Below, piece by piece: positions 7,828 through 62,555 of a stretch of DNA of 64,000 nucleotides. Position 1 is the first letter of the stretch. The number at the start of each line of letters is the position of its first letter. A program made the translations under genes and the position numbers. Under the pieces are notes generated by a model. The model did not search any database and was not told the DNA's origin. It saw nothing but the letters and a program-made list of their open reading frames with translations. Source of the stretch: Halapricum desulfuricans (GTDB lineage Archaea > Halobacteriota > Halobacteria > Halobacteriales > Haloarculaceae); NCBI RefSeq assembly GCF_017094465.1, contig NZ_CP064791.1, positions 1,488,001-1,552,000 of the forward strand, in the 5' to 3' direction.

Positions 7828-7926
7828 ATTCGGGTCTTGCAGGCAGTCCGGTTAAGCGTTTCATCGCAGATCCAGACTGCAATCACCGGAGAGCCACAGC
7901 GACCGTCCGCATACTGGTGGCTACGG

Positions 7927-8226
7927 TCAGACCAGCCACGTCGTGACTACGAGTGTGATCCCAATGGTGGCCCACCCGATCCCGGTAACGAACAGCGCCG
8001 ACGGCAAGTGCCGGACCAATCGTCGTTCCTCGTGCCACTGCTCGACTGGTATGGTGAACGCGTCCTCGCGGAACCACCAAATTGCGGCGAGCGCGGCCAG
8101 TGGTAGCCCGAAGGCGACCCAAAACAACGCGAACAAGCCGAACTCCAGGGTCCCGAAACACCCATACGCCAGCCAGCCGACCGCGTTCCCAGCCATACCG
8201 ATGGCACTCTTCTGCCGAGCGTCCAT
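7927..8226 (-). CDS. Small membrane protein, unknown
   Basis: A 99-residue protein with three likely transmembrane helices (about residues 8-24, 27-46 and 75-97) and a short hydrophilic loop containing PVEQWHEERRLVRHL. I start it at MDARQKSAIG (ATG at 8226); a further start nine codons upstream is possible. It lies about 115 nt downstream of sufD on the same strand but has no link to Fe-S assembly that I can see. Confidence 0.6.
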   Translation of the reverse strand: MDARQKSAIGMAGNAVGWLAYGCFGTLEFGLFALFWVAFGLPLAALAAIWWFREDAFTIPVEQWHEERRLVRHLPSALFVTGIGWATIGITLVVTTWLV

Positions 8227-45323: not shown

Positions 45324-45428
45324 ATACACCCGTTGGGACGGGGAACTGGGTTAAGTGTTTGTCGACTCCTGTTACGTCGATTGTCGAAATACGTCGGGTT
45401 TTTGTCCGACGCGCGTCCCACCCCGACT

Positions 45429-46496
45429 ATGGCACAGCGAGTTATTCACGTCGGCTGTGGCGGCTGGGGCGCGATGTGGTGTCACGAGTTCCTTCCGGCG
45501 AACGTCGAAGACGGGACGGTCGAAGTCGTCGCTGCCGTCGACCGGAACCCCGACGCGCTGGAGAACGCTCACGAAGGGCTGGGACTGCCCGAAGATCGGT
45601 GTTACACCGATCCTGAGCGAGCGTTCGCCGCCCACGACGCCGAGTTCGCGACGCTGGCCGTACCGCCTGCGGAGCGACGACCGCTGGTCGAGAGTGCGCT
45701 CGAACACGGGCTGGATCTGCTCACCGAGAAACCGATCGCGCCGACTCTCGATGAAGCGATCGAGATCGCCGATCTGGTCGAGGAAGCGGACGCGAAGATG
45801 GCCGTGACGATGAGCCATCGCTTCGACCGCGACAAGACAACGCTCCGGCGGCAGATCCAAAGCGGCGAGTACGGCCCGCTCGACTACCTGGTAATGCGGT
45901 TCACCCAGCGATATCGCCAGCGCGACGAATGGGTCGCCGGACGGCCCTACGAGATGGACCACCCGCTACTGGTCGAAGGCGGCGTGCATCACCTCGATCT
46001 GCTCGCATCACTCGCGGGGGCGAAATGCGAGCAGCTCTACGCACGCACGTGGAATCCCGAATGGAGCGATTTCAGCGGCGACTCACAGGTCCTGGTGACG
46101 ATGGAGTTCGAGAACGGCGTCCGGGCGACGTACGAGGGTGCGACGACCAACGCCGTGGCGCTCAACGGCTGGGAGAACGAGTACATCCGCGCGGAGTGTC
46201 GCGACGCGACGCTGGAACTCGACGCACGCGAGTTGACCGCCTACCCATACGACCCCGACGCCGAACCCAGACACAACGCGACGGGCCCACCGGAGGGAGA
46301 GTCGATCCCGCTGGAAGACGGCGAGAAGTGGATGAACGCGTGGCTCGTCGAACGGTTCACGGAGTGGCGCGCCGGCGGCGAGCCGATGGATACCCGTATC
46401 GAGGCAAACCTGCAGTCGATGGCGCTAATCGAAGCCGCGATGCGCTCGAGTGAACGTGACGAACCGATCGCAGTGCAAGAACTGCTCGAGAAGTGA
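45429..46496 (+). CDS. Gfo/Idh/MocA family oxidoreductase
   Basis: A 355-residue NAD(P)-dependent sugar-type oxidoreductase. HVGCGGWGAMW is the dinucleotide loop at the N-terminus, TEKPIAPT carries the family catalytic Glu-Lys-Pro, and EGGVHHLDLL has the family histidines. Members oxidise, reduce or epimerise sugars, inositols and biliverdin. Its place just before two surface glycan proteins suggests a sugar substrate. ATG 45429 is chosen because the fold starts there. Confidence 0.88.
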   Translation: MAQRVIHVGCGGWGAMWCHEFLPANVEDGTVEVVAAVDRNPDALENAHEGLGLPEDRCYTDPERAFAAHDAEFATLAVPPAERRPLVESALEHGLDLLTEKPIAPTLDEAIEIADLVEEADAKMAVTMSHRFDRDKTTLRRQIQSGEYGPLDYLVMRFTQRYRQRDEWVAGRPYEMDHPLLVEGGVHHLDLLASLAGAKCEQLYARTWNPEWSDFSGDSQVLVTMEFENGVRATYEGATTNAVALNGWENEYIRAECRDATLELDARELTAYPYDPDAEPRHNATGPPEGESIPLEDGEKWMNAWLVERFTEWRAGGEPMDTRIEANLQSMALIEAAMRSSERDEPIAVQELLEK

Positions 46497-46619
46497 ATAT
46501 TGTTGTCAGGAAGTCCGGGAAGGCAGTCTGTGAGTCGTCTCGTGCCCGGAGACGGCAGTTCCCTCGATTCACGGAAAAACCGTGATGTTTTTGTTCCTCG
46601 CGTATTATCATCTTTAGTC

Positions 46620-48899
46620 ATGAGACGGAGACAGTACCTCAGCAGTGTCGCAGGTATCAGTGCAGTGTCAGCACTTGGTGTCCAGTCGGTCGGAGCAGAA
46701 GTCAGCCAGCTGTCGAGTCTGGCGGCCCAGACTGACGGGACGATGACGATCAATGACCCCGAGGGCGACGACATCGGGCCGGGTTCGTATACATACCCGG
46801 CGAATCTAGAAAAGGGACAATTCGACGTTACACAACTCGACGTCGAAGAGACCGATACCCACTGGGAGTTCACGGCCCACATGGGCGTCCAGAACAACGG
46901 ATTCGACAACGACGCCGGGTTCAGCACGCAGGTCATCCAGCTGTATATCCGGGATCCGAACGCGCCCGACGATGCGCCAACGTCCTCGGAATCGCGACTG
47001 GGTGCTGTCTCGACGTTCCAGAACGAGTATCATTATCGGGTACACGTCCAGGCCGGCAACACGCTGCTCGAGCACGCCGGGCAGGATCCGGAAGGCGAGG
47101 ATTACGAGCCCCTCGTGTCCGGCTTCCCCGCGTCCGGCGATACCGAGAACAACACGATCAGCTTCTCGGTTCCCAAGGAGCCGTTCGATACCGCGAACTT
47201 CGCCGAGATGAGCGGCGCGATTATGATGTTCAGCCAGGACGGGTTCGGCGTCGGCGGCATCCGACAGGGCTTCGTATCAGGCGAGGCCGCCGACTGGAAG
47301 TTCGGTGGTGCCAAAGAAGGTGCCCTCGAGAGCGCACCGCGAGTGATCGATCTCGTCGGTCCGGAAACGGTCATCAATCAGGAGGAGGCCCTCGCCTACA
47401 GCGAGGGATCGCCGCCGTCGATCCCGCTGTACAGCATGGCCGATCTGGTGGCCGGTGGGACGATCAACGATCCCGAAGGCGACGATAACGGACCGGGGAC
47501 GTACACGTATCCGGCAAATCTAGAGAAGGGACAGTTCGACGTGACCGGCGTCGATCTGAACACGACTCCGGACCACTGGGAGTTCACGGCCCACATGGGC
47601 GTCCAGAAGAACCAGTTCGGGCTGGACGCCGGGTTTAGCTCGCAGGTCATCCAGCTATATATCCGAGATCCGAACGCACCTGACGATGCTCCTACCTCGG
47701 CCGAATCGCGACTGGGTGCTGTCTCGACCTTCCAGGAGGAATACCACTACCGAGCACACGTCCAGGCCGGCAACACGCTGATCGAGCACGCCGGGCAGGA
47801 TCCGGAAGGCGAGGACTACGAGCCCCTCGTGTCGGGCTTCCCCGCCTCCGGCGATACCGAGAACAGCACCATCAGCTTCAGCCTTCCGAGAGATACGTTC
47901 GACTCCGATCGCCTCGGCGATCTGAAGATAACGATGCTGGTGTTCAGCCAGGACGGCTTCGGCACCGGTGGTATCCGACAGGGCTTCGTCACTGGCGAAG
48001 CGTCCGACTGGAACTTCGGCGGCGCCAAAGAAGGCGCGATCGAGAGCGCACCGCGGGCACTCGATCTCGTCGGCCCCGACAACGTCGTCGAACAGGAGGA
48101 GAGCCTCTCCTACAGTGCGGGTTCGCCGCCGTCGATCCCGCTGTTCAACGTGACCTCGCTGGTGACCGGCGAGGCTGCCGTCGGAATTTCGGCAGTTGCG
48201 GCCCCAATCGGCGACGTCTGGGCGACCCTCGATGGGACACTCAACGGGACGAACTCCGAAGCTGACGGGGACGTCGATCTGACCTACCAGTGGGAACAGA
48301 CCGGTGGGCCCGAGGCCGAAATCGCTGACACGAGTGCCGCGGAGACGACGTTCACGGCACCCGAGGTCCAAGAGGAAACGACGCTGGAGTTCACGCTGAC
48401 CGTCACCGATCCGGACGGCAACGAGGCCACCGACACGACGACAGCGACGATCAAGCCACAGTCAGCGAACGACGCGCCGATCGCCGACGCCGGCGAGGAC
48501 CAGACGGCCTCGCCCGGCGACGCGGTCTCGCTGCAGACAGTCAACTCGGAAGACCCCAACGGCGGGACGCTCTCCTTCCAGTGGACACAGACCGGTGGGA
48601 CTCCCGAGGTCGATCTGCTCGGGGCAGACAGTTCCGGAGCAGCCTTTACCGCGCCGGACGTCGACGAGGAGACGACGCTGACCTTCGAGCTCGCCGTCAG
48701 TGACGGTCAGGGCAAAACCACTACCGACACTGTGAGCGTCACCATCTCACCCAGCGACGGAGGTGGCACCGAGACCGAGACCGAATCCGGAGACGGCTTC
48801 GGTCCCGGCTTCGGTGCGGTGACCGGTCTGGTCGGTGCTGCGGGCGGTGCCGCATACGCGGCCAAGAGCCGTCTCGGTAGCAACGAAGACGAAGAGTAA
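46620..48899 (+). CDS. Tat-exported surface protein: two glucodextranase C-domains, two PKD-like domains, PGF-CTERM
   Basis: A 759-residue secreted protein. The N-terminus RRRQYLSSVAGISAVSALG is a twin-arginine signal. Residues about 41-277 and 281-516 are two near-identical glucodextranase C-terminal-type domains (INDPEGDD, GPGSYTYPANL, VIQLYIRDPNAPDD); the repeat spacing is 714 bp with high DNA identity. Two PKD/REJ-like domains follow (TYQWEQTGG, FQWTQTGG). The end DGFGPGFGAVTGLVGAAGG is a PGF-CTERM signal, for archaeosortase-linked lipid anchoring. No catalytic domain is present, so it may bind glycan. ATG 46620 begins the signal. Confidence 0.85.
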   Translation: MRRRQYLSSVAGISAVSALGVQSVGAEVSQLSSLAAQTDGTMTINDPEGDDIGPGSYTYPANLEKGQFDVTQLDVEETDTHWEFTAHMGVQNNGFDNDAGFSTQVIQLYIRDPNAPDDAPTSSESRLGAVSTFQNEYHYRVHVQAGNTLLEHAGQDPEGEDYEPLVSGFPASGDTENNTISFSVPKEPFDTANFAEMSGAIMMFSQDGFGVGGIRQGFVSGEAADWKFGGAKEGALESAPRVIDLVGPETVINQEEALAYSEGSPPSIPLYSMADLVAGGTINDPEGDDNGPGTYTYPANLEKGQFDVTGVDLNTTPDHWEFTAHMGVQKNQFGLDAGFSSQVIQLYIRDPNAPDDAPTSAESRLGAVSTFQEEYHYRAHVQAGNTLIEHAGQDPEGEDYEPLVSGFPASGDTENSTISFSLPRDTFDSDRLGDLKITMLVFSQDGFGTGGIRQGFVTGEASDWNFGGAKEGAIESAPRALDLVGPDNVVEQEESLSYSAGSPPSIPLFNVTSLVTGEAAVGISAVAAPIGDVWATLDGTLNGTNSEADGDVDLTYQWEQTGGPEAEIADTSAAETTFTAPEVQEETTLEFTLTVTDPDGNEATDTTTATIKPQSANDAPIADAGEDQTASPGDAVSLQTVNSEDPNGGTLSFQWTQTGGTPEVDLLGADSSGAAFTAPDVDEETTLTFELAVSDGQGKTTTDTVSVTISPSDGGGTETETESGDGFGPGFGAVTGLVGAAGGAAYAAKSRLGSNEDEE
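46741..48170 (+). repeat. Internal tandem duplication (714-bp period) of the glycan-binding domain
   Basis: Two copies, about 46741-47455 and 47460-48170. Long identical stretches include the segment from CTGGGAGTTCACGGCC, which lies at 46863 and 47577. This points to a recent duplication within the gene. Confidence 0.8.
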
Positions 48900-48946
48900 G
48901 CGTTCTCGTTTTCGTTCGTTGACTCATCTTCACGATCGATGGATGG

Positions 48947-48956
48947 TTTTATTATA
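48947..48956 (+). promoter_or_regulatory. TATA-like box for the amylase gene
   Basis: TTTTATTATA about 95 nt before ATG 49047. Transcription would begin near 48975, giving a leader of about 70 nt, unlike most genes here. Confidence 0.55.
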
Positions 48957-48970
48957 CTCGTCGTCTAACT

Positions 48971-49027
48971 CAGCGGCTACGACGCAGTTCCCGTTGGCTC
49001 CCGGTGCGGTGCCGGAGCCAGCCGCTG
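48971..49027 (+). promoter_or_regulatory. Nested hairpin in the leader of the amylase gene
   Basis: The outer stem is CAGCGGCT (48971-48978) with AGCCGCTG (49020-49027), 8 bp and perfect. The inner stem is GGCTCCCGG (48996-49004) with CCGGAGCC (49012-49019), 8 bp with one bulged C. The two 3' arms touch. It ends 19 nt before the ATG and lies after the promoter, so it could be a structured leader; it could also be the terminator of the preceding gene. Confidence 0.5.
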
Positions 49028-49046
49028 CGCGAAGCCCCAACAGGGA

Positions 49047-52000
49047 ATGAAACGACGACAGTACCTCGGCGGCATGGCCACCCTCGGTACGTTTTCGGCC
49101 ATGCCTGCAGTTACGGAAGGCGCACAGTCACTGGTAACGACACGCTCGGTCGGCGACAGTCATCATCCCGGACCACCACGCGTGATGCACGCCGGCGAGA
49201 AACTCGTCGATCCGCTCACGCCGGATTACAGGGGGGATGGGGCTCCGGACGGCCGGAGCGTGCTCGCGCCGCGCATCCCCGAACCCGAACGGGATCCCGA
49301 CAACTACGGGCCGGAAGCGTTTACGTGGCGGGTCGTCGACACGCCCGACGACAGCGAAGTCACTGGATTCTACTCGAATCCCGGGGAGTACGGCTACCAA
49401 TCGGGCGTCGAGGAGTTCGATCCCGACGTTCCCGGGACGTACACGCTGGAACTCGACGCACCGGACGGAACCCACCAGTTGACAGTCAGAGTGTTTCCCG
49501 AGCCGGCAGATGGTTCGGCAGGCCCACCACGGGTCGACCCCGAGAGCGACTACGAAGACGGCGAGTTCGTGATCGACGCCAACGGGACCCCTGCGCCGGA
49601 CAGCGCGACCGCGCCAGCGGACCTGTCCGTCGAGTTCCTCGTCGACGATCGCGACGGGTTGGCGGCGGACGATCTGACAGTCGAAGACGCGACTGCGACC
49701 GTTCCAGCCGACGCAGTCGAGGGGACTGCGCGTGTCCACGTCGTCGCTGCCGACGACCAGCCCGGAATCATCGGGACGGTCGAACTCGACGCCGACGCGG
49801 GCGAGACGGCACGGCCCGACACGCCGCCGACGTGGATTCACGATTCGGTGATGTACACGATCTTCACGCGGTCCTTTGGCTCCGAAGCGGGTGAGGTCGA
49901 CTTCCAGTACCTGCAGGACCGGGTCGACTACCTCGCCGATCTCGGCGTCGACGTCGTCTGGCTGACGCCGATCGTCGAGGCAACGACCCACGTCGAGGAC
50001 GACCCCGCGGGCGGTCCCCACGGCTACGACACGACCAACTACTTCGAGACCGCCGATCCCCTGGGCTCTGTCGAGGCGTACGAGGCGTTCGTCGAGGCCT
50101 GCCACGAGCAAGACATCAACGTCTGTTTCGACCTGGTGATCAATCACACGGACATCCGACACCCCTTCTTCGCCGACGCCGACGAAAACGGGACGGACTC
50201 GAAGTACTACGAGTGGTTCGAACGGCTCGAAGACGGCACCCCCAACCACTACTTCGGCTGGACGGATCTGATGAACGTCAACTACCAGTCGGTCGCGATG
50301 CGCGAGCACATCCTCGCGGCCGTCGATTTCTGGACGGACATCGTCGACGGCTTCCGGTGTGACATCGCGTACGGCGTCCCGCACGACTTCTGGAAGGAAG
50401 TCCGACAGCTGATCCGCGCCAAGGACAGTGACGTCTTCCTGCTGGACGAGGCGATCCCCTACGGCCCGCGGTTCAGCGAAGGCGAGTTCGACATGCACTT
50501 CGACGAGGTACTGGCCGAGAACGTCCGCTCGATCGGCCAGGGCGGCGTCGACGCCGAGCAGGTGCTGGAGGCGACCACCGAGCGCAAACGGCGCGGCGTG
50601 CCCGACTGGACGGTCTTCCTGCAGTACGTCGAGACCCACGACATGCGCCGGTACCTCGACGTCGCCGAGAAGACCGCCGAACGGGCCGCCGCCGCGGCGA
50701 CGTTCACGCTGCCGGGCGTGCCGATGATCTACTACGGCCAAGAGCGTGCGATCGCCGAGTATAGCGAACGCCGAATGGAAGAACGCGGCCACTTCCGGTC
50801 GTTCATGAACTGGGAGGAGTACGACGAGAGCCACCTCGCGTTCTACCAGTCGCTCATCGACGCCCGCAAGGAGGTGCCGGCACTCCAGCACGACGCCGCC
50901 CTCCGTGGTGCGTACTACGACAGCGACTCCGAACAGGTCGTTGCCTACGGCCGCGACGCGGGCGATCAGCGCGTCGTGGTCGTCCTGCACTTCGGGGAGG
51001 GGACCGAAACGGTCGCGCTGCGCGGTCCCGTCTCCTCGACCGACCTCGTCTCCGGGAGCGACCTCGGAGTCGAGTCCGACGACGATCTGACCCACGTCGA
51101 GGTCGATTCGGTCGCCGTGCTGGAGACGCCCTCGCTGTCCGGCCTGGGGTCGCACCTGGCAGGGACCGACGACGAGGTCGGCGACGACCACGGCCCCGGC
51201 GGCTACACCTATCCGACCGGCGACGGCTACGCCGACGGCGCGTTCGATCTGACGAGGATCGACGTGCACGAGACCGACGGCGAGTACCAGCTCCGGTTCT
51301 CGATCGACGGGCCCATCGAGAATTTCGCGGAGTACGACAGCGGGTTCTCCGCACAGCACGTCCAGGTGTACGTCCGGGATCCGACGGCTCCGGACGGCGG
51401 CGAGGTCGCCCGCGAGGGGCTGGACGCGCGACTGGCAGAGCCCTACCAGTACCGGATCGTCGCAGACGGCGAGCACGGGGCGCGCGTCGAGACGCCCGAC
51501 GGGGAGGTCGTCGCCGAGGGATCGGTCTTCGCGAGTCCGTCGACGGGCTCGATCAGGATCGACATCCCTGATTACGCGATTCCGGGAGACCTCACCGGAC
51601 TCGAACTCGCGCCACTGTTGCTCGGCTACGACCCCGACGCACCGGGCAACGTCATGGGTGTCGGCGAGTCCGCAGGCGAGCACCAGTTCGGCGGTCGATC
51701 CGACGAGAACGCCCCGCAGGTGATCGACATGGTCACGCCCGAGGGAATCACACAGGCCGAGGCGCTCGATTCGGCCGAGATTCCCTACGTCGTCCTGGGC
51801 GATCCCTTCGACGGCGAGGCAATTGCGCGGTTCGAGGACGAGACGGGCGACGACCACGGCCCCGGTTCCTACACGTACCCGGAGGAGGAACTGTCCGCGG
51901 GTGATCTGGACGTCGAGTCGGTGACGGTCTACGACGACGGCGACCGCTACCGCTTCGCGTACCGCTTCGCCGACGGGTTGACCAACCCCTGGGGCGGCGA

Positions 52001-53909
52001 CTACGGCTTCTCGGCCCAGCACCTGCAGGTCTACGTCCGCAATCCAGCCAGCGATGCGCCGACAGCGACCGACGGCCGGGCGGGGACGAACGTCGCCTTC
52101 GCCGATCCCTACCACTACCGGATCAACGTCGAGGGCTACGACGGCCATAGCGTGGTCGAGAACGGCGCCGGCGAAGTCGTCACCGACGACGTGACCGTCG
52201 GGGCCTACCAGTCGATGGACACGATCGCCTTTTCGGTCCCCAAGTCGGCGCTCGGCGGCGGGATCGACAGCGCCGAGATCGCGCCGCTGGTCTTCGGATT
52301 CGATCCCGACGGACCGGGGCGCGTCCGTCAGGTCGGAGCCACGGCGACGGAGACGGCGTTCGGCGGCGGCACGACGGGTGACGATCCGGCAGTCATCGAC
52401 ATGCTCCTCCCGGAGGGCGAGTCCCAGGACGACGTTCTGGAGTCCGGCGACGCGCTACCGTATCTCTCGCTGGCCGGCTTCTCCGGGACGCTCCTCCACA
52501 GCTGGGACGACGGGATCGGCGATGATCACGGCCCCGGAAGCTACACCTATCCAGAATCTGATGATATACCGGACGATGTCTACGACATCACGAACGTCGA
52601 ACTGTACGAAACCAGCGACAGGTACCGGTTCGTTTACTATCTGAACGGCCCGATCACGAATCCATGGAGCGGTGGCGACGGCTTCTCGCTGCACAACTTC
52701 CAGGTGTACATCAGAGATCCGGAGGGGGCGGACCTCCCCGCCACGACGGAAGCCCGCGAGGGAGTCAAGGCAACCTTCAGGCGGCCATATCACTACCGGA
52801 TCGCAGTCGACGGCTACAGCGTGCGAAACGTTGTCGCCGGCGACGGCGAGACTATCACGCAGGACATCGAGGCGCAGGCCTATCCCGACCTCGGCGCAGT
52901 CGCGTTCGACGTGCCAAGCGACGCGTTCGAACGCGACCTGGACGATCATCACTTCGTGCCCCTGATCCTCGGTCACGACTCCTACGGCACTGGAGCCGTT
53001 CGCACGGTCAGCGAAGATGGCGGCAAGTGGAAGTTCGGCGGTGCCAAAGAAGGCGCGGCCGAGAACGCGCCGCGAGTCATCGATATGATCACTCCTGGCG
53101 GCGTCTCCCAGTCGGAGGCGCTGTCGTACTCCGCGGACGAGCAGGCACAGCTCCCGTACGTGCCTGAGATCGAAGGCGAGCCGGGCCAGCCGATCGCCGT
53201 CGCCAACGCCGACGGGCCGGCGTTCGCGACGACCGACGTCGAACTGGACGGATCGGGCTCGAGCGACCCCGAAGAGCAGGATCTGACCTACGAGTGGACA
53301 CAGACGACCGGGCCGGACGTGGCGCTGTCGGAGTCGACCGGGGCACAGCCGACGTTCACCGCTCCGGATGTCGACGGGGAGACTGATCTGGCGTTCGAAC
53401 TCAGCGTCAGCGACCCGGACGGCAACGAAGCGACCGACACGGTCACGGTGACGATCCGCCCCCAATCGTCGAACGACGCACCGATCGCCGACGCCGGCGA
53501 GGACCGAACGGTCGATCCGGGTGAGACGATTTCGCTGCAGGCGGTCGACTCCGAAGACCCCAACGGCGGGTCACTCACCTTCCAGTGGGCACAGACCGGT
53601 GGGACGCCGGAAGTCAAGCTGACGGGTGCCGACAGCGTCGGCGCGGCGTTCACTGCGCCGGAGGTCGACGGAGACACGACGCTGACCTTCGAAGTGACTG
53701 TCGACGACGGACAGGGGAAGACGGCGACTGACGCCGTCGACATCACCGTCCGCGGGACCGGTGAAACGGCGACCGAGACGGGCGACGGCTTCGGCCCCGG
53801 CTTCGGTGTCGTCAGTGGCGCACTGGGCACTGCCGGTGGCCTCGCGTACGCAGGCAAGTCACTGCTGGATGGCGAGTCGGGGGTGACCGACGACAGCGAC
53901 GAGCAGTAG
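49047..53909 (+). CDS. Tat-exported GH13 alpha-amylase with three glucodextranase C-domains, PKD-like domains and PGF-CTERM
   Basis: A 1620-residue surface enzyme. KRRQYLGGMATLGTFS is a Tat signal. A linker/N-domain leads to the GH13 barrel (residues about 260-650): region I DLVINHT (362), region II GFRCD with nucleophile D439, region III DEA with acid E468, region IV THD with D532. It should cut alpha-glucosidic bonds; starch, pullulan or dextrin cannot be told apart. Three glucodextranase C-type domains (starting near 705, 925 and 1150, each GDDHGPG-x-YTYP), two PKD-like domains (about 1385-1575) and a PGF-CTERM end follow. The gene shares its domains with the gene before it. ATG 49047 starts the signal. 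Confidence 0.88.
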   Translation: MKRRQYLGGMATLGTFSAMPAVTEGAQSLVTTRSVGDSHHPGPPRVMHAGEKLVDPLTPDYRGDGAPDGRSVLAPRIPEPERDPDNYGPEAFTWRVVDTPDDSEVTGFYSNPGEYGYQSGVEEFDPDVPGTYTLELDAPDGTHQLTVRVFPEPADGSAGPPRVDPESDYEDGEFVIDANGTPAPDSATAPADLSVEFLVDDRDGLAADDLTVEDATATVPADAVEGTARVHVVAADDQPGIIGTVELDADAGETARPDTPPTWIHDSVMYTIFTRSFGSEAGEVDFQYLQDRVDYLADLGVDVVWLTPIVEATTHVEDDPAGGPHGYDTTNYFETADPLGSVEAYEAFVEACHEQDINVCFDLVINHTDIRHPFFADADENGTDSKYYEWFERLEDGTPNHYFGWTDLMNVNYQSVAMREHILAAVDFWTDIVDGFRCDIAYGVPHDFWKEVRQLIRAKDSDVFLLDEAIPYGPRFSEGEFDMHFDEVLAENVRSIGQGGVDAEQVLEATTERKRRGVPDWTVFLQYVETHDMRRYLDVAEKTAERAAAAATFTLPGVPMIYYGQERAIAEYSERRMEERGHFRSFMNWEEYDESHLAFYQSLIDARKEVPALQHDAALRGAYYDSDSEQVVAYGRDAGDQRVVVVLHFGEGTETVALRGPVSSTDLVSGSDLGVESDDDLTHVEVDSVAVLETPSLSGLGSHLAGTDDEVGDDHGPGGYTYPTGDGYADGAFDLTRIDVHETDGEYQLRFSIDGPIENFAEYDSGFSAQHVQVYVRDPTAPDGGEVAREGLDARLAEPYQYRIVADGEHGARVETPDGEVVAEGSVFASPSTGSIRIDIPDYAIPGDLTGLELAPLLLGYDPDAPGNVMGVGESAGEHQFGGRSDENAPQVIDMVTPEGITQAEALDSAEIPYVVLGDPFDGEAIARFEDETGDDHGPGSYTYPEEELSAGDLDVESVTVYDDGDRYRFAYRFADGLTNPWGGDYGFSAQHLQVYVRNPASDAPTATDGRAGTNVAFADPYHYRINVEGYDGHSVVENGAGEVVTDDVTVGAYQSMDTIAFSVPKSALGGGIDSAEIAPLVFGFDPDGPGRVRQVGATATETAFGGGTTGDDPAVIDMLLPEGESQDDVLESGDALPYLSLAGFSGTLLHSWDDGIGDDHGPGSYTYPESDDIPDDVYDITNVELYETSDRYRFVYYLNGPITNPWSGGDGFSLHNFQVYIRDPEGADLPATTEAREGVKATFRRPYHYRIAVDGYSVRNVVAGDGETITQDIEAQAYPDLGAVAFDVPSDAFERDLDDHHFVPLILGHDSYGTGAVRTVSEDGGKWKFGGAKEGAAENAPRVIDMITPGGVSQSEALSYSADEQAQLPYVPEIEGEPGQPIAVANADGPAFATTDVELDGSGSSDPEEQDLTYEWTQTTGPDVALSESTGAQPTFTAPDVDGETDLAFELSVSDPDGNEATDTVTVTIRPQSSNDAPIADAGEDRTVDPGETISLQAVDSEDPNGGSLTFQWAQTGGTPEVKLTGADSVGAAFTAPEVDGDTTLTFEVTVDDGQGKTATDAVDITVRGTGETATETGDGFGPGFGVVSGALGTAGGLAYAGKSLLDGESGVTDDSDEQ

Positions 53910-60350: not shown

Positions 60351-62414
60351 TCACGAGTTATCAGACCGTCCCGGAGCGAGTCCGTACGGTTCCCCGCGCA
60401 GGTGGCTCTCGACCAGCAAGACGTACGTCGCCTGACTCCACTGGAGATTCGAGTTCCAGTCGACCGTGCCGTCACTCGCGACCCGCTCGGGGAGCAGGTC
60501 TGCCGTGGTCGTCCACTCGCCTGCGTGTTCGCGGACGTGTGTTGTCACCGCGTCCGGATCGAGGCCGCTCTGCCAGCGGACCACATCGGCGTAGGCTTCA
60601 CACAGGGGCCAGCCGCCGTCGTCCGGTCCGCCGGTCGGCGTGTATCGGTCACCGGGATAGCGACCGATGCAAGGCGTCTCTTCTGCCACCCACGCCGGAT
60701 CCTCGGTCAGTTCGACCGTCGAGCGCATCGTGTCGGCGTCCGCAGCGACGACGTTCCACGGCCAGTAGGCCATGAACGCCGCCGCGTCAGGCCGGGCGTC
60801 GGGTGCAGGGTCGCCGCCGTGTTCCGGTTTATCGGCAGTCACGAAGTGATCACCGTAGGGCGTCCCCGTCCGGTAGCAGTACGTCTCGAAGTTGTCCGCC
60901 CACACGTCGGCCCGCTTGCGACACCGGACTGCGAACTCGTCCTCACCACGGGCCTCGGCCAGCTCGGCCATACATCGCAGGCCTGCGATAGCGGCCGCCG
61001 ATCCCTCCGTGGAGTGGCCCCACGTCTCCTCCCAGGGGTCCTGATGAGCGTCGGGAAACCCCCAGCCGTTGTCCCACTCCAGCAGGAACTCCGCAGCACG
61101 GCGGGACATATCGTAGTGTACATCGAGGACGCCGTCGTCGCCGGTCTCCCGCCAGGTCAGCCAGTGGGCGTAGATCGGCCCGCCGACCTGGTCGAGCTGG
61201 AGGGCAGTCCAGTGGGACGAGCCGTCCGTATAGTAGTTCTGCCACCAGGTGCCGTGACGTTCGATTCCGCGGTCGTCTACCACGTCACCGGTGATCTGGA
61301 CGTCATCCAGCCACGCGACGGCGTCCCGAGCTTCCCGATCAGCGCCAGCCGCCAGCAGCGCCTGGATCATGATCACCTGATCGCGCGGCCAGATGAACCG
61401 GTAGGTCATGTTCTTGGGCTTGAACGCGCCGGCAACCATCCCGCCGGAGCTGTCGCGAGCAGCCCGAATCGCTGTCAACGACCGCTCGTAGCGATCGTCG
61501 ACCGCGTCCTCGCCGGTCGGGGCGGTTGTGACGCCCGCGTGCCAGGATTCCCAGGCGTCGGCGAAGGCCGCGCGATCGGTCTCGTACCCCGCGTCGAGAG
61601 CGGCGACTGCGTGATCGATAGCCGACTCGGCGTCGTGAGCGAAGCCGATGGCAGTCGTCCACTCGACCCGCTCGATGTCCTCGACGAACAGGCCGAACCC
61701 GCCGTCCAGATCACCCGCGCCCGCCGTGGAATTGGTGAGCCAGCCGTTGTTGTCCTCGTAGATCTCTGCCCAGGCGCTACGCTCGCGGCCGGTCGACTCG
61801 CCAGCGTGGCCGATCCGATAGCCGTCGAAACGCCGCTGTCCGTCGTGTTCCTGAACGATCGCCAGAAAGCGGTCGTCGTCGTCGGCCACGATCACGTCGT
61901 GGTCGGGGGTACACCGCGCCTGCGCCTCGTGGACGGCGTTTGGATCCTCGTGACTGTGACCGTTGATCCCGAAGTTGAGCAGCGTGTACAGCGTCCGATC
62001 ACCGGCCTCCTCGAAGGTGGCCTCGCTGTGGATCGTCATCGAGCAGCGATCGACGCTCTCGACGACCCGCTGGGAGAGGGTCGCACCCATCCCATCGGCG
62101 AAGACGAACTCGTTATCGAGATGAATCTCGGGGACGCGGCTGGACGCCCAGTCGACGTCGCTCGCGACGGCGTCGTCGCGGTTGTCAAGCGTCTGCTCGC
62201 GCTCGGGATCCCACAGCAACGTGTGGTAATCGTAAAACAGTTCGATGTCAGAGCGGAACGCGGACGTCTCCTCGATGATCGCCCCCTCGGCGTCGATCCG
62301 GGGGTTCGCGGCGTAGCAATTGGCTGAAACCAGCACGTGCTGGCCGTCACCCGCCGGTGTGCTCGCGATGGCATCCTTGTCGCTGGGTACCTGAAAGTCG
62401 ATCGGGGGCTCCAT
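60351..62414 (-). CDS. GH15 family glucoamylase-like enzyme, cytoplasmic
   Basis: A 687-residue enzyme from ATG 62414. It has an N-terminal beta-sandwich (residues 1-270) and an (alpha/alpha)6 barrel. FIWPRDQVIMIQALL, DPWEETWGHSTEGSA (general acid Glu), WPWNV and LLPERVASDG-NLQWSQATYV (base Glu in PER) fit GH15. No signal is visible, so it should release glucose from short alpha-glucans inside the cell. A GTG at 62495 would add 27 residues, but the minus-strand CTATTTC element near 62445 fits the ATG better. Confidence 0.85.
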   Translation of the reverse strand: MEPPIDFQVPSDKDAIASTPAGDGQHVLVSANCYAANPRIDAEGAIIEETSAFRSDIELFYDYHTLLWDPEREQTLDNRDDAVASDVDWASSRVPEIHLDNEFVFADGMGATLSQRVVESVDRCSMTIHSEATFEEAGDRTLYTLLNFGINGHSHEDPNAVHEAQARCTPDHDVIVADDDDRFLAIVQEHDGQRRFDGYRIGHAGESTGRERSAWAEIYEDNNGWLTNSTAGAGDLDGGFGLFVEDIERVEWTTAIGFAHDAESAIDHAVAALDAGYETDRAAFADAWESWHAGVTTAPTGEDAVDDRYERSLTAIRAARDSSGGMVAGAFKPKNMTYRFIWPRDQVIMIQALLAAGADREARDAVAWLDDVQITGDVVDDRGIERHGTWWQNYYTDGSSHWTALQLDQVGGPIYAHWLTWRETGDDGVLDVHYDMSRRAAEFLLEWDNGWGFPDAHQDPWEETWGHSTEGSAAAIAGLRCMAELAEARGEDEFAVRCRKRADVWADNFETYCYRTGTPYGDHFVTADKPEHGGDPAPDARPDAAAFMAYWPWNVVAADADTMRSTVELTEDPAWVAEETPCIGRYPGDRYTPTGGPDDGGWPLCEAYADVVRWQSGLDPDAVTTHVREHAGEWTTTADLLPERVASDGTVDWNSNLQWSQATYVLLVESHLRGEPYGLAPGRSDNS

Positions 62415-62555
62415 GTGTGTCTGTACCACGCGAGGCTGGGTGAAATAGCTGTGGCCGGCGTGCGTCTCGCCTGCCCGGGCGCGAGCCTGTGACACACGAG
62501 ACCTTGATCGCCTCCCCGGACATACCGAGGTCTCGATCGCCTCCCGGAGAGACGG

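Follow-up and report, generated by a model that had tools for sequence, protein, structure and literature searches.

A non-catalytic protein with glucodextranase C-type domains encoded next to a GH13_49-type amylase in Halapricum desulfuricans: a putative starch-binding partner

The gene pair and its domain architecture

The stretch of DNA analysed here, a 64-kb window of the Halapricum desulfuricans genome (2.88 Mb in two contigs, with 17 GH13 matches), contains two open reading frames on the forward strand, separated by 147 bases. The first encodes a protein without catalytic domain (P1), the second a putative surface α-amylase (P2). Directly upstream of P1, a gene for a MocA-type oxidoreductase is located. 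The features of the locus are as follows.

45426..46496, + strand: GFO/IDH/MocA oxidoreductase gene, directly 5′ of P1 (Pfam, gene neighbourhoods)
46620..48899, + strand: P1, non-catalytic partner, 759 aa (Pfam, AlphaFold, omega of about 0.29 against the partner of the congener G002)
46620..46697, + strand: P1 twin-arginine-type signal MRRRQYLSSVAGISAVSALGVQSVGA (sequence; other partners start alike)
46740..47441, + strand: P1 glucodextranase C-type domain (GDC, PF09985) 1 (Pfam, AlphaFold, fold matches)
47454..48161, + strand: P1 GDC 2, 76% identical to GDC 1 (domain comparison)
48198..48476, + strand: P1 PKD-like domain 1 (Pfam)
48489..48767, + strand: P1 PKD-like domain 2 (PF22352, K319L-like; Pfam)
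48780..48896, + strand: P1 C-terminal GPGFG tail, apparently diverged PGF-CTERM-like (TIGR04126 score, tail profile)
48947..48956, + strand: TATA-like box TTTTATTATA 5′ of P2 (conserved in G002 and G003 as TTTTATT)
48970..49046, + strand: P2 5′ leader with conserved hairpin (comparison with orthologues, profile search)
49047..53909, + strand: P2, putative α-amylase with predicted surface display, 1620 aa (ORF, Pfam, NCBIfam)
49047..49124, + strand: P2 twin-arginine-type signal MKRRQYLGGMATLGTFSAMPAVTEGA (sequence)
49860..50810, + strand: P2 GH13 catalytic domain (Pfam, motif positions)
51159..51812, + strand: P2 GDC 1 (Pfam)
51825..52475, + strand: P2 GDC 2 (Pfam)
52497..53171, + strand: P2 GDC 3 (Pfam)
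53202..53774, + strand: P2, two PKD-like domains (Pfam)
53772..53906, + strand: P2 C-terminal GPGFG tail, apparently diverged PGF-CTERM-like (tail profile)

Both proteins have a twin-arginine motif at the start, M(R/K)RRQYL, which leads into a hydrophobic stretch. They share the GDC (two copies in P1, three in P2) and the PKD-like domain PF22352 (two copies each), while a GH13 barrel (PF00128) is found only in P2, which is in line with the first-pass annotation of this DNA on all four points. PF09985 was matched with 263.7 bits in P1 (E 1.6e-78) and with 460.5 bits in P2 (E 1.2e-138), both above the Pfam gathering score of 22 bits. No catalytic family was matched in P1 by Pfam, and the full-length AlphaFold model of this protein (mean pLDDT 73.7) consists only of four beta domains and disordered ends. 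P1 contains no cysteine and therefore no lipobox. A contig search for a named relative returned seven matches, all bacterial and confined to the PKD region, none of which was taken as such.

P2 carries all hallmarks of GH13_49 α-amylases (e.g. MalA of Haloarcula japonica) that are named in the sections of PMC11239784 drawn on here. These are a cysteine directly before the nucleophile (GFRCD, aa 435–439), an aspartate before the acid/base residue (LLDE, aa 465–468), a glutamate in CSR-IV (ETHD, aa 529–532) and GQ at the end of CSR-VII (YYGQE, aa 562–566). The best NCBIfam model for P2 is that of MalA (NF041321), from which it departs by a score (541 bits) under the cut-off of 875 and by its Tat signal and PGF-like tail. 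In the same sections of PMC11239784, archaeal GH13_49 members with PKD domains and GDCs, the latter termed ‘glucodextranase-like binding domains’, are already described, so that P2 appears to be of a known kind. A non-catalytic neighbour of such an amylase is not described in these sections, and the new part is the recurrent partner rather than the architecture of the amylase.

The tails of both proteins had been assigned to PGF-CTERM in the first pass. With the curated model TIGR04126, P1 reached 16.1 bits only (cut-off 24.5) and P2 gave no match at E ≤ 1. A profile built from 14 such GPGFG tails and run against this genome does, however, link both to true PGF-CTERM proteins: besides the four GDC proteins encoded here (73–79 bits), its only further matches were four proteins of the same genome at 25–30 bits, all of which pass TIGR04126. 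On account of these further matches, the tails are, judged by sequence, best called diverged PGF-CTERM-like signals. In addition to this tie to true members, they have a PGF motif, basic end residues and a hydrophobic stretch, the latter being weak (mean Kyte-Doolittle 1.2–1.3) and rather glycine-rich. The gene for archaeosortase A (TIGR04125) is present in the genome.

P2 has a TATA-like box of its own and, like its G002 and G003 orthologues, a leader of about 75 nt. The hairpin in this leader contains three base pairs that are changed on both sides and still paired; its folding z is about −2.3 in G000 and G002. Haloarchaeal transcripts are mostly leaderless, and a 5′ leader such as that of P2 is unusual among them. 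Given the box and the conserved leader, P1 and P2 may be transcribed separately, and a single transcript of both genes would not be assured. Three further candidates in these upstream regions were rejected. The hairpin does not define a wider regulatory family, strong matches being restricted to G000, G002 and G003 (others at E 0.003–0.008). A small upstream ORF in the leader has a start codon only in G003 and substitutions which, by eye, are not coding-like. A palindromic operator TCACGGAAAAACCGTGA at 46569 before P1 is not kept in G002 or G003. The partner genes share a box, CGTGA(N)2TTTWT, approximately 32–39 bases 5′ of the start codon (46581–46593 in the window; also upstream of L057:5923, L056:12913 and L060:8837), which differs from that of the amylase genes (GATGG(N)3-TTTTATT).

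Fold, distribution and recurrence

GDC 1 of P1 was modelled by AlphaFold with a pLDDT of 97.2 from 76 sequences, and the top fold match was domain C of the glucodextranase of Arthrobacter globiformis I42 (PDB 1ug9, Z 25.4), which belongs to the same family (profile E 9e-43). The Arthrobacter enzyme, a GH15 member, bears a single copy at its C-terminus, whereas P1 has two copies and no enzyme part. The next match was CBM74 of Ruminococcus bromii Sas6 (PMC13271388) with maltodecaose (PDB 7uwv; Z 10.1, 13% identity in this fold-level comparison), followed by CBM9 (Z 6.3); the rows thereafter are immunoglobulin-like folds of unrelated antibodies (Z 5.6 or less). In the profile search, no sequence match between CBM74 and the GDC was found. 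The conserved aromatic positions of GDC 1 comprise Y17, Y19, W42, Y97-H98-Y99 and W186. By its predicted fold, the GDC may be a carbohydrate-binding module, although likeness in fold does not prove binding.

The domain is present in 34 of the 146 genomes searched in the haloarchaeal family and in 119 of 392 genomes of the order. Among 67 GDC-bearing ORFs of the family, 32 encode GH97, 21 GH13 and two GH15 enzymes, while 12 are without catalytic domain, several of these being contig ends or frameshift halves. All catalytic GDC carriers checked (55 of 55) are GH13, GH97 or GH15 proteins.

The congener G002 has the same gene order as found here, namely HMG-CoA synthase, MocA-type oxidoreductase, partner (GDC-PKD-PKD), amylase and TFE. 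In G003, the locus is split into two halves approximately 0.6 Mb apart. The left half comprises HMG-CoA synthase, MocA, a GH97-GDC enzyme and a 763-aa partner, the right half a 556-aa partner, the amylase, a 541-aa partner and TFE; thus, partners flank the amylase on both sides and the third adjoins the GH97-GDC enzyme. The region before TFE in G004 contains a frameshifted amylase gene and a GH97 gene; elsewhere in this genome, two GH13-GDC amylase genes are followed by a gene for a GDC protein of 379 aa. An 827-aa GDC-only ORF of G004 (L058) was discarded as a partner, since it is the second half of the frameshifted amylase. The MocA-type gene before the partner is kept in G002 and G003 and truncated in G001 and G005, where the locus is deleted: MocA stops after codon 29 or 42 and joins sequence before TFE, with 73 bases of P2 retained in G005. 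The end points of the two MocA-P1-P2 deletion scars (L116, approx 7835–7935, and L117, approx 8021–8053) differ.

Outside the family, two genomes of another haloarchaeal family (G202 and G209) encode a 377-aa protein with Tat signal, GDC and PGF-like tail directly after a MalA-type GH13 enzyme. The amylase has no Tat motif in these genomes, so that the membrane may separate the two proteins there. Altogether, non-catalytic GDC genes adjoin an α-glucan hydrolase gene in eight of the ten cases found (P1, one in G002, three in G003, two in G004 with one of them broken, and one each in G202, G209 and G195), a count in which the cases within the genus are not mutually independent and the second family counts separately. 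The exceptions are the partner genes of G195 (L129) and G004 (L061), with no amylase nearby. Adjacency by chance is estimated at one or two per hundred for each gene (about 20 such genes in about 2,900). Some of the partner genes sit in fragmented assemblies. The omega values for P1 (0.28–0.36) reveal purifying selection, and P1 is therefore not debris.

Putative role and origin of the partner

The Sus and Sas systems of gut bacteria include starch-holding proteins with no catalytic activity. Neither an archaeal equivalent nor a binding assay of the GDC was found in the open-access literature, and an earlier description of such a partner may exist. SusD, SusE and SusF of Bacteroides resemble P1 in concept, as proteins that capture glycans next to a surface GH13 enzyme without being catalytic themselves. 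Their domains are unrelated to those of P1, which has no SusD Pfam domain at E ≤ 0.01 and neither an outer membrane nor a TonB transporter partner, so the SusD-like comparison drawn in the first pass applies to the idea only. GH97, the family to which SusB belongs, is represented at the locus in both G003 and G004. In R. bromii, Sas20 is a surface-associated starch-binding protein separate from the amylases (PMC9112005). P1 is alike in idea to Sas20 and to Sas6 with its CBM74, but it shows no sequence-level match to Sas proteins, has a PGF-like tail and contains no recognised dockerin, cohesin or CBM26. Neither Dockerin_1 nor Cohesin was matched in this genome, and a dockerin-cohesin assembly of the Sas type was not found in it.

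P1 is probably a Tat-exported, C-terminally anchored protein whose GDCs bind α-glucan beside the GH13_49 amylase P2. It would leave the cell folded via the Tat route and be held at the cell surface by its tail, with the two PKD domains as spacers standing it off the cell. The two GDCs would serve as carbohydrate-binding modules that hold starch-like α-glucan near the S-layer, and P2, itself equipped with three GDCs, would cut the glucan held by P1. Of the readings considered, that of a starch-binding partner, put forward in the first pass, is best supported, since the catalytic GDC carriers all belong to α-glucan-active families, CBM74 and CBM9 are the nearest carbohydrate-binding relatives of the predicted fold, P1 is under purifying selection and the pair recurs; the PGF-CTERM assignment did not stand at the curated cut-off. 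Glycan binding by P1, its display at the surface and its cooperation with P2 are what we infer from these data.

Both P1 and P2 already have an anchor-like tail, next to which a second anchor would be redundant. It is thus rather unlikely that the GDC is an attachment module for the cell's own surface glycans or S-layer glycoprotein and that P1 is a scaffold or spacer positioning enzymes instead of capturing substrate, even though Pfam describes PF09985 as SLH-like and the GDC arrays are located at the C-terminal, wall-proximal side. Some GDC enzymes stop right after the GDC without a recognised anchor, and in these the domain itself could anchor. The nearest carbohydrate-binding fold relatives of the GDC, however, bind polysaccharide substrates, and a set of catalytic carriers made up entirely of GH13, GH97 or GH15 enzymes fits substrate targeting better than general anchoring.

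The ligand of P1 might also be a non-starch glycan (dextran, a pullulan-like glucan or a self-made exopolysaccharide), as the amylase neighbourhood does not name it. The domain takes its name from glucodextranase, an α-1,6-glucan enzyme, the GH97 and GH15 carriers cover several α-specificities, and the P1-type GDCs have clade-specific residues (e.g. W42 and W186). We regard such a ligand as improbable, since three species of the genus have the partner beside the GH13_49 amylase and another family shows an independent association with MalA-type amylases.

In the domain tree, the GDCs of P1 fall into one group (support 100/98) with the GDCs found in the other partners and with GDC 3 of a 1862-aa amylase encoded in this genome, apart from all three GDCs of P2. 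P1 and P2 thus share the same kinds of domains, as had been noted before, but not by a simple duplication of the neighbour, and a tandem duplication of the C-terminal half of P2 as the source of P1 is rejected on the basis of this tree, the 1862-aa amylase being encoded at another locus. Because of this grouping, the partner most likely goes back to the half of another amylase that carries the binding and anchoring parts, and was then placed or kept beside P2. That P1 is only a by-product, i.e. an amylase C-terminal half that was copied through domain shuffling and has no distinct function, would agree with this clustering and with PKD-tail cassettes that look common to several genes of one genome, but is very improbable for a protein with its own Tat signal, promoter-like region, full open frame and internal duplication, an omega of about 0.29 and recurrence in two families. 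In G002, near-identical PKD and tail segments were observed in the partner, the neighbouring amylase and a 1859-aa amylase (L057:6733-7482, L057:11764-12501 and L068:10217-11008), which suggests gene conversion; an exchange of these segments among the genes of a genome thus seems to have taken place.

If P1 binds α-glucan, as the reading as a starch-binding partner predicts, starch would be captured and cut by different surface proteins in haloarchaea, and a domain that is widespread among them would gain a testable function. More tentatively, the GDC could represent an unrecognised α-glucan-binding family akin to CBM74 and be part of a modular haloarchaeal starch adherence, with recurrent pairs of an amylase and a GDC-only surface protein and with interchangeable anchors (PGF-like tails for the majority of species, dockerin-like repeats for one congener).

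Dockerin-like repeats, recognised by eye, replace the PGF-like tail at L059, L065, L066 and L115 (G003 and G004), where they form the ends of some GDC enzymes and of a 379-aa GDC protein. In G004, Dockerin_1 matches above the cut-off and one ORF joining cohesin and dockerin were found. These features possibly belong to an archaeal cohesin-dockerin starch system. Downstream of the gene pair, a GH15-like protein with Glucodextran_N but no GDC is encoded within the window (60351-62495, − strand); from its sequence, it is a probable glucoamylase or oligosaccharide glucosidase.
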